This document shows positions 13,935 to 50,409 of a stretch of DNA of 50,532 nucleotides, in pieces. A program made the translations under genes and the position numbers. The notes under the pieces were generated by a model that saw nothing but the letters and a program-made list of their open reading frames with translations, did not search any database and was not told the DNA's origin. The DNA lies in the NCBI GenBank assembly GCA_900320225.1, contig ONRL01000018.1:1-50532 (forward strand), given 5' to 3'. How positions within the stretch are numbered: the stretch's first letter is position 1; each line of letters starts with the position of its first letter. This stretch comes from an uncultured Lentisphaerota bacterium (GTDB lineage Bacteria > Verrucomicrobiota > Kiritimatiellia > RFP12 > UBA1067).

Positions 13935-14582
13935 TCAATCCTCCGCCTTGCAGTACCGAAGCAGTTCCTCGAACCGGTTGATCTTGATGTTGCAGCGGCT
14001 CTCGCGCAGATGCCCGAAGCCGAACGTACAGAACGCGGTCTTCACTCCCGCGTTGCACCCGCACTGCATGTCGGTCCAGTTGTCGCCCACCATCCAGTCG
14101 TGCGACGAGACGCGGTGCCCGCGCAAACGCGAAGCCGCCTCGCGGAGCGGCAGCGCAGAAGGCTTCATCTCCGCGCAGTCGCCGCCGCCCACCACGCCCG
14201 CGCCAAAATAGCGGGCGATGCCGAAGTGGTCAAGGATCTGGCGCGTAAACGTGCCGGGCTTGTTCGTGACGATGCCCATCAGCCAGCCGCGGTCGTGAAG
14301 TTCCGCAAGCGTCGAACGCACGCCGGGGTAGAGCGTGGTCGTGTCGAAGAGATGCGCGCCGTAGTTGCGCAGGTGCATCGGCCAGAGTTCGTCGAAACGC
14401 CCGGTCGCCTCGGGGATGGCGTGTTCCAGAAGGTAGCGCGCGCCATTGCCCACGCACGCCACCACGTCCTCCAGAGGCAGTTCGGCCAAGCCAAGTTCTT
14501 TGCGCGTCGCGTTCACCGCCGCCGCCAAGTCCGCACGCGAATCGATCAGCGTGCCGTCCATGTCGAAGAAAACTGCATTCAT
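13935..14582 (-). CDS. HAD-superfamily hydrolase, phosphoglycolate phosphatase-like
   Basis: A 215-residue HAD phosphatase. Motif I FFDMDGTLIDS holds the nucleophile and acid aspartates, motif II is IVTNKPG, motif III is the lysine in AEMKPSALPL, and motif IV is WMVGDNWTDMQCG. A helical cap (about residues 15-85) has the Gph-like AVNATRKELGL ... VGNGARYLLEHA pattern, so phosphoglycolate phosphatase (2-phosphoglycolate to glycolate) is the best guess, although many HAD enzymes of this class are promiscuous. Cysteines are abundant in the C-terminal 60 residues. First gene of the HAD-MBL-kinase-regulator run. Confidence 0.85.
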   Translation of the reverse strand: MNAVFFDMDGTLIDSRADLAAAVNATRKELGLAELPLEDVVACVGNGARYLLEHAIPEATGRFDELWPMHLRNYGAHLFDTTTLYPGVRSTLAELHDRGWLMGIVTNKPGTFTRQILDHFGIARYFGAGVVGGGDCAEMKPSALPLREAASRLRGHRVSSHDWMVGDNWTDMQCGCNAGVKTAFCTFGFGHLRESRCNIKINRFEELLRYCKAED

Positions 14583-14602: not shown

Positions 14603-14630
14603 GAACCTATTCACTATTGCCTATTCACTA
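14603..14630 (-). repeat. TAGTGAA-type heptamer array directly after the tRNA-Ser CCA end
   Basis: On the minus strand, four heptamer units follow the encoded CCA after 4 nt: TAGTGAA, TAGGCAA, TAGTGAA, TAGGTTC. The same array type, in the same orientation and phase, follows the tmRNA CCA end at 44723. Confidence 0.85.
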
Positions 14631-14634
14631 CCAT

Positions 14635-14728
14635 TGGCGGAGGGAGGGGGATTCGAACCCCCGATACGGAGATTAGTCCGTATGGCGATTTAGCAAACCG
14701 CTGCCTTCAGCCACTCGGCCATCCCTCC
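14635..14728 (-). tRNA. tRNA-Ser (anticodon GCU)
   Basis: Class II tRNA. The acceptor stem GGAGGGA pairs with TCCCTCC, the anticodon loop TTGCTAA gives GCU, and a long variable arm pairs ATACGGA with TCCGTAT. The T arm is CGGGGGTTCGAATCCCCC; discriminator G and CCA are encoded. It reads AGC/AGU. A plausible sigma70 promoter lies in the 65-nt gap upstream: TTGCTT, 17 bp, TATCAT. Confidence 0.97.
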
Positions 14729-42519: not shown

Positions 42520-43836
42520 CTATCGAACGGTCATCAGCTCGTCCCAACGCGTGGTGGAACGCTTGGAGAGTTTCGACCGCTTCATCTGCCACGGGCGCGG
42601 ACCAATGCCCTCGGCTGCGGAGAATACCTTCCCCTTGCCGTAACGGGCGTTGAGCGCGTCCACGGCCTTGTAAAGCCGCGACCGTTCCGGCGGCGGAGAC
42701 GCGTCGAAGAGGTCGGCTTGCTGCGGCGTCCCCGGCTTCTCAAGGCCGAAGAACACAACGCCCGTCTTGCGGTAACGCAAGCCCGGCGTGAAAAGCGCGG
42801 ACATCTCCGGACGAAAAGCGCGGAGCATCTCGTTCGTGGCATCGGTCGGGACGGGGAACACCACCGTCCTGTCCACGAAATCGCCCCCTCCGCCCGAAGC
42901 GAAGACCTGCGCGTAGATGTTGCATCCCGCCGCGAGGAGTCCGTGTCGGCGGAGTTTGGCGGCCGCCTGCGCGGCGAACGAAGCGATGGACTCCTCGATC
43001 GCCTCACATGTCGTCGCCGGCGTTCCAAAGGAACGCGAGCAGGACACGGTGTCGGGAGCCGCGTCGTAGTCGCGTTCCTCGCAACAGGGGACACCGCGCA
43101 GTTCCATCGCCGTGCGGAGGAGCGTCACGCCGCCCACGGCGCGGATCGTGTCGTCCGGCGCGTCGCGGAGATGCCGCGCGGTGAGGATGCGCGCGGCGCG
43201 GAGTTTCGCGGGCAGGTGGCGCCCCACGCCCCACACCTCGCGCGTCGGCAACGCGGCCAGGATCTCCGTTGGATCGTCCGGCATGAGGAACACGCCGTCC
43301 GGACGTTTCTTCGCAATGTGGTTGGCGAGCTTGGCGAGCGTCTTCGTGGGCGCGAAGCCCACGCCGCAGGGGATGCCGACCCAGCGCAGTATCTTGCTTC
43401 TGAGCCTTCGGCCATAAGCAAGATATGGGGAACGGGGAATGGGGAACGGGGAATGGGGAACTGTGGTGATAGCAGCCGTTCCCCGTTCCCCGTTCCCCAA
43501 CGCCTCCAGTGATGGAGGCGTTATGAACGCCTCGTCGATGGAATACTGCTCCACGTCCACGGCCTCCTCGCGCAGGATGGAGACGATGCGGTTCGAGAGG
43601 TCGCCGTAGAGCTCGTAGTTGGACGAACAGAAGGAGAGCTCGCCGGTCGCCTCGCGGCCCTTGAGCTGGAAATAGGGAGTGCCCATCGGGATGCCAAGCG
43701 CCTTGAACTCATTTGACCGTGAAACGCAGCATCCGTCGTTGTTGGAGAGGACGGCCACCGGCCGTCCCACGAGGCGGCGGTTGAATACGCGCTCGCAGGA
43801 GACGAAGAAGTTGTTGCCGTCAACGAGGCCGATCAT
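42520..43836 (-). CDS. umuC: UmuC, Y-family translesion DNA polymerase V catalytic subunit, with an in-frame repeat insertion
   Basis: A 438-residue error-prone polymerase. Metal-binding Asp6 (MIGLVDGNN) and Asp101-Glu102 (QYSIDEAF) are present. UmuC-specific AVLSNNDGCCVSRSNEFKALGIPMG, APTKTLAKLANHIAKK and the C-terminal WQMKRSKLSKRSTTRWDEL identify it as UmuC and not DinB. Odd: residues about 107-139, right after SIDEAF, are an insertion absent from relatives. They are encoded by a palindromic GGGGAAC/GGGGAAT heptamer array that stays in frame and keeps the active site intact. Translation is coupled to umuD by a 4-nt ATGA overlap. The convergent heparinase-like gene ends 46 nt away with no visible terminator. 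Confidence 0.93.
   Translation of the reverse strand: MIGLVDGNNFFVSCERVFNRRLVGRPVAVLSNNDGCCVSRSNEFKALGIPMGTPYFQLKGREATGELSFCSSNYELYGDLSNRIVSILREEAVDVEQYSIDEAFITPPSLEALGNGERGTAAITTVPHSPFPIPRSPYLAYGRRLRSKILRWVGIPCGVGFAPTKTLAKLANHIAKKRPDGVFLMPDDPTEILAALPTREVWGVGRHLPAKLRAARILTARHLRDAPDDTIRAVGGVTLLRTAMELRGVPCCEERDYDAAPDTVSCSRSFGTPATTCEAIEESIASFAAQAAAKLRRHGLLAAGCNIYAQVFASGGGGDFVDRTVVFPVPTDATNEMLRAFRPEMSALFTPGLRYRKTGVVFFGLEKPGTPQQADLFDASPPPERSRLYKAVDALNARYGKGKVFSAAEGIGPRPWQMKRSKLSKRSTTRWDELMTVR
43391..43522. repeat. composite palindromic heptamer element embedded in umuC
   Basis: Five head-to-tail units alternating GGGGAAC and GGGGAAT (43427-43461), a 16-nt loop, then three inverted units GTTCCCC (43478-43498). 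It is flanked by two further palindromes: ATCTTGCTT/AAGCAAGAT (arms at 43391-43399 and 43416-43424) and AACGCCTCCA/TGGAGGCGTT (43499-43522). Confidence 0.85.
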
Positions 43837-44367: not shown

Positions 44368-44721
44368 GGGGGTGATCCGGTTTCGACGGGATGCGTGGAG
44401 ACCAGATTGCGCGTCGAGGATTCTCGTTGGCCTCGTTAAAAAACGGGAAAAACTGTAATTGCGAACAACGATTACGCTCTCGCGGCCTGATTAACGGCCC
44501 CGATGTCGCGCGGCGGACGCCTGCTAAGCCGCAGCGGCATAACCTAGCAGGACCCGCTGCGGGGTTTTCCGCCTGGACGCCGCAGCCTGCATAATCAAGC
44601 GGTTGCTTTCGGATAAGCCCGTTCGTCGGCGTACCGAAGGCGAGATCAAAGGCGGACTACACGCGTAGATGTTTGGCCAAAGCCGTTTCGGACGGGGGTT
44701 CGACTCCCCCCACCTCCACCA
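44368..44721 (+). ncRNA. ssrA: transfer-messenger RNA (tmRNA)
   Basis: One-piece tmRNA of 354 nt. The 5' end GGGGGTGATCCGGTTTCGACGGGA holds the conserved D-loop-like sequence. The acceptor GGGGGTG pairs with CACCTCC near the 3' end, followed by A and an encoded CCA. The T arm is GGGGGTTCGACTCCCCC. The tag reading frame starts at the resume codon GCG (44461-44463) and encodes ANNDYALAA before TGA (44488-44490); the ALAA end is the usual protease signal. Later pseudoknot stems are visible, for example CCCGCTGCGGGG and GGCGTACCGAAGGCG. A strong promoter lies upstream. The RNA rescues stalled ribosomes with SmpB, which is not encoded here. Confidence 0.97.
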
Positions 44722-44788
44722 TTAGGGAATAGGTGATAGTGAATAGTGAATAGGTTGTGGATGGGTCGCCAATGAATCTATTCCCTAA
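44722..44788 (+). repeat. TAGTGAA-type heptamer array abutting the tmRNA CCA end, closed by an inverted arm
   Basis: One nucleotide after CCA begin five heptamers: TAGGGAA, TAGGTGA, TAGTGAA, TAGTGAA, TAGGTTG (44723-44757). About 20 nt later CTATTCCCTAAT (around 44777-44788) is the inverse complement of the first ATTAGGGAATAG, so the whole can fold back. Same repeat, phase and strand sense as after tRNA-Ser. Confidence 0.85.
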
Positions 44789-44802
44789 TGAAGGCAACTG
44801 CC

Positions 44803-50333: not shown

Positions 50334-50388
50334 TGACACAGCGCGACCTTCAACCGCTAATTTCGGATGGGATGGATGAAGGTGACAT

Positions 50389-50409
50389 GAGACAAGAGAC
50401 GAGAGACCT
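50389..50409 (+). repeat. GAGACNN heptamer triplet
   Basis: Three head-to-tail 7-mers GAGACAA, GAGACGA, GAGACCT in the intergenic region. Unrelated in sequence to the other heptamer families but with the same period. Confidence 0.6.

Follow-up and report, generated by a model that had tools for sequence, protein, structure and literature searches.

Heptamer arrays at the 3' ends of tRNA-Ser(GCU) and tmRNA

Why do tandem seven-nucleotide repeats begin within a few nucleotides of the encoded CCA of two different RNA genes? The question arose from a stretch of 50,532 nt (here, the window) that is contig 151 of a 5.2-Mb MAG; the assemblies compared are likewise MAGs, whose contigs may mislead. 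The tRNA-Ser(GCU) gene (14635..14728, minus strand; ARAGORN and sequence) has its encoded CCA at 14637-14635 and ends in CTCCGCCA, followed by ATGG and the solo heptamer element TAGTGAA-TAGGCAA-TAGTGAA-TAGG (14606..14630, minus strand). The TAGTGAA-type array that the original prediction placed 4 nt after the CCA is thus real and located at 14630-14606, but it consists of three full units and a partial fourth (3.5 units), not of four 7-mers. It lies within the 52-nt spacer between tRNA-Ser and a same-strand HAD-like gene downstream, whose 5' part (MNAVFFDMDGTL) occupies 14200..14582 on the minus strand, with the start codon at 14582-14580. The tmRNA gene (44368..44721, plus strand; tag ANNDYALAA, encoded CCA) ends in CCACCA, followed by a single T and the element TAGGGAA-TAGGTGA-TAGTGAA-TAGTGAA-TAGG (44723..44754, plus strand). 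The sequence confirmed this as a related, sense-strand array of four and a half units starting 1 nt past the CCA. The "same phase" ascribed to the two arrays has no clear meaning because the offsets are 4 nt and 1 nt.

With up to two mismatches allowed, a two-unit pattern gave 5 matches in the window against 0.13 expected, and none of 100 shuffles reached 5. The array family shares with known heptameric repeats the 7-nt tandem unit, the many intergenic copies and the position near a coding-strand stop. A second heptamer family, a hairpin of the form (GGGGAAY)n-loop-(RTTCCCC)n at 43425..43498 with a folding z of -6.8, lies in frame within an open UmuC-like frame on the minus strand (SIDEAFITPPSLEALGNGERGTAAITTVPHSPFPIPRSPYLAYGRRLRSKILRWVGIPCGVGFAPTKTLAKLANH). 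Another imperfect heptamer array, of GACAAGA type, was observed close to the window end at 50384-50407.

Distribution and unit order of the TAGTGAA family

About a dozen TAG-type arrays are present in the window's own genome, and TAGTGAA-type arrays occur across its genus and family (Kiritimatiellae). The 17-mer TAGTGAATAGTGAATAG was found with at most one mismatch in 28 of 59 relatives and is rare outside the family; arrays with a TAGTGAA-type unit are present in many phyla. The family arrays are dispersed with a fixed order of units, (T)A[AG]YGAA-TAGGTRA-TAGTGAA-TAGTGAA-TAG, which recurs at many unrelated loci. Its core AGGTRA-TAGTGAA-TAGTGAA was present in 29 of 76 family arrays versus 0 of 131 TAGTGAA arrays of other bacteria, and within the class 34 of 346 genomes have the canonical order, almost all of them from one family plus one genus of another. 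Since independent slippage would not fix one order of unlike units at unrelated loci, the family copies have evidently spread by copying and not by slippage alone.

Placement at gene 3' ends

Of 66 arrays, 40 started between -17 and +15 nt from the end of a co-oriented gene, compared to 8.5% expected at random in like spacers (binomial 2e-26; genes called by coding score, with orthologous loci inflating the counts somewhat). These 40 comprise 33 arrays behind protein genes and 7 behind RNA genes, namely, tmRNA, tRNA-Met, tRNA-Gln and tRNA-Ser. Of the 33 arrays behind protein genes, which begin at the stop codon or often supply it, 23 contain that codon. Stops occur in every frame of the forward TAGTGAA unit and in none of its reverse strand; sense insertion at the end of an ORF therefore costs only a few residues, and we infer that such a stop-codon filter explains most of the placement without targeting. 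The scan of the genome and its relatives thus bore out the predicted enrichment at 3' ends, but at those of all gene kinds.

In the window's own genome, TAG-type arrays lie within 10 nt of 2 of the 47 tRNAs and of the tmRNA; the copy at tRNA-Met is decayed. Genomes of genus g6 with the canonical sequence have one copy each, which is located at tmRNA in 8 of 12. In other phyla, no array was found in sense behind an RNA gene. The low-GC genomes of other phyla had similar numbers of sense and antisense arrays, with a difference in distance only; the orientation bias is therefore claimed for the Kiritimatiellae family only. Because an array by itself ends every forward frame, a plain ORF-end comparison was dropped as a measure of sense bias in high-GC genomes; coding-score gene calls and low-GC genomes took its place. 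RAYT/Y1_Tnp was rejected as the mobilizer, the genome having three Y1_Tnp genes with no heptamers nearby. The arrays lack the direct repeat of the RNA 3' end that marks the far side of a tRNA-targeting integrative element; their far arm is inverted.

Sites with and without arrays

Comparison of orthologous loci, as suggested in the original prediction, showed that the tRNA-Ser, tRNA-Met and galactokinase sites vary in the presence of the array. The tRNA-Ser/HAD locus is conserved in G005, G006, G009, G011 and G013. Arrays are present at this locus in G000, G006, G009, G011 and G013, and the orthologous arrays have one unit more than that of the window (TAGTGAATAGGTTAGAGTGAATAGTGAATAGG in G009 and G013). 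The array is missing in G005, where the CCA is followed by TCACC and directly by the ATG start of the HAD-like gene. An array or remnant behind tRNA-Met was found in G000, G005 and G006 and none in G009, G011 and G013. G006 contains two tRNA-Arg/tRNA-Met pairs in one MAG (L371, L379; C43, C757), one with a full hairpin and the other with a cut-off element. At the galactokinase end, the last conserved sense codon gives way immediately to the array in G000, G005, G006, G009 and G015; a TGA and an unrelated spacer, similar in length, stand there in G002 and G008, and G011 has another heptamer, AGTGTAA. The roughly equal length of the spacers with and without the element fits replacement as well as insertion. 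The differences at the three loci would reflect either gain or loss of the array.

Longer inserts also differ between related genomes. Between the MoxR and DUF58 genes, G006 and G009 have no insert and read CCG TGATTGACGTCAAGGA, with the genes overlapping; G000 and G005 read CCG TGATTCGTG, followed by a gene for a 23S rRNA-intervening sequence protein (S23/IVP, PF05635), after which G000 continues with CACGAACCACGAAA ATGGCCATTGATGTCAAAGAG. The cmr2/cmr3 junction is without an insert in Picosynechococcus PCC 7002 and with one in PCC 7003. The nrdA/nrdB junction is without an insert in Calothrix NIES-4105 and with one in Nostoc edaphicum, where the nrdA stop codon TAG is the start of TAGGGAG. 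The species and strains also differ otherwise, and such sites therefore show gain or loss of the unit and not the event itself; the insert may move as a unit.

The tmRNA trailer hairpin

In the window, the tmRNA array is part of a trailer hairpin of 13 bp, whose 5' arm (CATTAGGGAATAG, 44720..44732, plus strand) overlaps the last two bases of the CCA and whose inverted 3' arm (CTATTCCCTAATG) lies at 44778..44790 on the plus strand. In genera g1, g2 and g6, the tmRNA 3' flank reads TCCA, AGGGAATAGGTGATAGTGAATAGTGAATAGGTTG, a loop (39-42), CCTATTCCCT and TGGA, followed by inverted heptamers. The stem reaches 19-21 bp in most relatives, beginning in the last bases of the RNA and extending into the CCA, and many relatives have inverted heptamers and a PF05635 gene beyond the 3' arm, both of which the window lacks. 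The arms vary in concert (TTTT/AAAA, TT/AA, TC/GA and AAAT/ATTT), as compared by eye and by script without a formal pair count, since the MAFFT alignment set the arm gaps unsymmetrically. The trailer fold is strong in G005 (z -5.7) and moderate in the window (z -2.2), and the tmRNA copy is the most conserved of the arrays. The data fit both use at tmRNA and slow decay of an old insertion, and the pattern of conservation suggests one or the other.

Array hairpins were found only at tmRNA and tRNA-Met; the tRNA-Ser array gave no fold in the folding test, and an inverted partner was sought for the arrays at protein genes with none detected. A general hairpin role was rejected on account of this restriction, and a general terminator role on account of the missing T-run behind the hairpin and the unfolded tRNA-Ser array. 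The proposed help in ending transcription or guiding 3' processing is conceivable chiefly for tmRNA and tRNA-Met, whose arrays form half of a hairpin.

Some tmRNAs of the family encode the CCA and others do not; it is not encoded at L306, L107, L099, L429 and L438 (CCTCCAAAATAGGG, CCTCCATATCA). The trailer element may have displaced the encoded CCA in several family members. Unrelated inverted repeats beginning within CACCA were observed instead in the tmRNA trailers of G004 (C249) and G013 (L301, L303). In G004 (C40) and G011 (C137; L264, L272), a 16-nt remnant of the tmRNA 3' end (GTCCTCACCTCCACCA) precedes a heptamer hairpin beside shared foreign sequence. The tmRNA gene looks like an integration site for islands in the genus, a matter separate from the arrays.

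PF05635 genes flanked by heptamer arrays

In many relatives, the tmRNA hairpin is followed directly by a gene for PF05635, the S23/IVP protein, for which the closest solved chain is 2rld. We analyzed 26 PF05635 loci from 15 genomes of the order, chosen as the best-scoring genes and including several orthologous to each other; four of 30 loci were excluded, namely, L442 (near-identical orthologue), L444 (N runs), L456 (below the cut-off) and L470 (frame unplaceable, no array seen). An array of 7- or 8-mers was located upstream within 170 nt in 24 of the 26 (period 7, n = 19; period 8, n = 5), versus 5 of 138 control genes. Arrays stand on both sides of 19 of the 26, with the right array in most cases reverse-complementary to the left, and the repeat unit is for the most part particular to its locus.

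The linkage of arrays with PF05635 extends to several phyla. PF05635 genes on plasmids of cyanobacteria, Azospirillum, Riemerella, Gemmatirosa and others had an upstream array in 11 of 15 cases and inverted matches of 10-24 bp between the flanks in 10 of 15; the query of this search was a hand-composed IVP sequence (the start of L459, the rest a consensus guess) and not a natural protein, and the matches are real records. Among 116 named loci chosen for TAGTGAA arrays only, three had a PF05635 gene, with the array touching it in two. In Mesorhizobium hawassense, the nuoC stop is followed by a TAGTGAA-type array, the IVP gene, an inverted array and nuoD (gene names read from the sequence), and a second locus with a TAGTGAA array touching a PF05635 gene is present in a Flavobacteriaceae MAG. 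No description of a general link between heptamer arrays and PF05635 was found in the open-access literature.

No PF05635 gene was found beside the TAGTGAA-type arrays of the window's genome; the two strong PF05635 copies there have arrays of other units, and the IVP gene linked to tmRNA is absent. In relatives, both array arms precede the tmRNA-linked IVP gene and none follows it, so that it does not have the flanking layout. Solo arrays matching IVP elements of the same genome were observed twice: the tRNA-Asp GTTCGTG array of G000 matches the IVP element array at its C124, and the galactokinase AGTGTAA array of G011 matches its own C124 IVP element. The tRNA-Asp array of G000 (C316, L074) reads CACGAAC behind the gene, after a terminator-like stem, as the reverse complement of the C124 array. 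A short contig of G000 (C114, L071) is rich in unusual tRNA genes and possibly phage-derived.

Origin of the arrays

Small IVS-like insertion elements that collect at the 3' ends of genes are the probable source of the window arrays, which would be derivatives without an ORF; we place moderate confidence in this explanation. A complete element would consist of a PF05635 gene, encoding the S23/IVP four-helix-bundle protein, between two 7- or 8-mer arrays, the right being the reverse complement of the left, and it would settle directly behind genes, the IVP protein presumably taking part. Without its gene, the element would be reduced to an array hairpin and, on further loss, to a solo array. 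Such stages would be preserved in the window as the tmRNA hairpin, the GGGGAAY hairpin and the solo array at tRNA-Ser. Placement is most likely filtered by the stops that sense TAGTGAA has in all frames, which would make insertion at or just inside an ORF end harmless, and an insertion behind an RNA 3' end would be removed by 3' processing. The tmRNA array may have been kept across genera as a hairpin arm that possibly aids 3' processing, e.g., by RNase III as in the 23S IVS.

Two other readings are less likely. The arrays could be ordinary heptameric STRR-type slippage repeats, kept where harmless behind genes, with PF05635 one tolerated place; the unit-number changes between tRNA-Ser orthologues, the TAGTGAA-unit arrays in many phyla and the heptamer arrays that Xanthomonas and Nostoc have close to stop codons (PMC4692102) are in line with this, but it leaves unexplained the unit order common to unrelated loci and the PF05635 genes flanked far above control genes, usually by inverted arrays, and we regard it as unlikely. 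Somewhat less probable again is a functional 3' signal acting in RNA for transcription termination, 3' processing or translation termination. The tmRNA trailer speaks for it, with arms that reach into the CCA and change together in several versions, the best-conserved copy and a strong (G005) to moderate (window) fold, as do the stops in all frames of the sense orientation. Arm changes could also stem from copying between arms, however, and the signal reading is countered by the hairpin without a following T-run, the protein-gene arrays without an inverted partner and the tRNA-Ser array, which is unfolded and absent from G005.

That the repeat targets or grows from tRNA-like 3' ends, as originally predicted, now appears very improbable. 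Sense placement at 3' ends is indeed far above chance and RNA genes are over-represented: tmRNA, tRNA-Ser, tRNA-Met and tRNA-Gln are carriers, two of about a dozen strict own-genome arrays lie at RNA ends although RNA genes make up about 1% of genes, and most single canonical g6 copies are at tmRNA. The link is not specific, however, given that 33 of the 40 3'-end arrays follow protein genes, that no array of other phyla lies behind an RNA gene in sense and that only 2 of the 47 tRNAs of the genome are carriers. Nothing points to growth from an RNA end: one order of units recurs at unrelated loci, and G005 lacks the tRNA-Ser copy.

Relation to known repeats and significance

REP, BIME and REPIN sequences are short, dispersed, non-autonomous sequences behind genes, with the RAYT transposase as their autonomous relative. 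The IVS-like elements proposed here resemble them as short dispersed elements behind genes with an autonomous relative, but no RAYT was found near the heptamer arrays. STRRs of cyanobacteria are heptameric intergenic repeats. The GGGAATC/GGGGAYT heptamer repeats of Xanthomonas and Nostoc are likewise intergenic and near stop codons on the coding strand (PMC4692102). The arrays share with both the 7-nt unit, the intergenic position, the many loci and the proximity to coding-strand stops, and differ from them in the fixed unit order within one lineage and in the link to PF05635, the latter not found in PMC4692102. The TAACTGA direct repeats of Beggiatoaceae also have stops in all three forward frames and a patchy distribution over phyla, but stand mostly just before start codons, with no linked protein gene in the part of the description available to us (PMC4679880), whereas the arrays here lie behind genes and are PF05635-linked.

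The 23S IVS of Coxiella burnetii has tandem GACAGAT heptamers before the S23p ORF and 28-bp complementary inverted ends, and is cut by RNase III (PMC4990558). The proposed complete elements share with it an S23/PF05635 ORF between complementary ends, heptamers before the ORF (Coxiella) and the existence of degenerate forms. Complementary ends of the IVS type form the stem at tmRNA and tRNA-Met in relatives and a weaker one of 13 bp at the window tmRNA, and are lacking at tRNA-Ser; the ORF is absent from the window and present behind the tmRNA hairpin of many relatives. Unlike the 23S IVS, which sits inside a 23S rRNA helix, the elements here are intergenic, behind stop codons and tRNA/tmRNA ends, and their inverted ends are themselves tandem 7/8-mer arrays. 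The Coxiella rRNA IVS looks like an element of this kind at a different site. An RNA step is conceivable, as a speculation, since PF05635 resembles Avd, which serves diversity-generating retroelements as accessory protein (PMC10053308).

More broadly, PF05635/S23 genes with inverted 7-/8-mer arrays could be widespread unrecognized mobile elements that insert behind genes, with the rRNA IVSs as members in 23S rRNA and scattered arrays such as STRRs as ORF-less derivatives, a tentative proposal that we hold a little short of even. Neither the heptamer arrays of bacterial spacers nor the S23 proteins of rRNA IVSs have an agreed function or origin, and both puzzles are old. Should a full census uphold the link, each would explain the other and both would become testable: the heptamer ends of its own element would be candidate DNA or RNA partners of the S23/IVP protein, the arrays would have a source, and repeats touching stop codons and RNA 3' ends would be explained. 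Annotation is affected in two ways, through protein C-termini that the arrays redefine and through a possible displacement of the CCA encoded in tmRNA.
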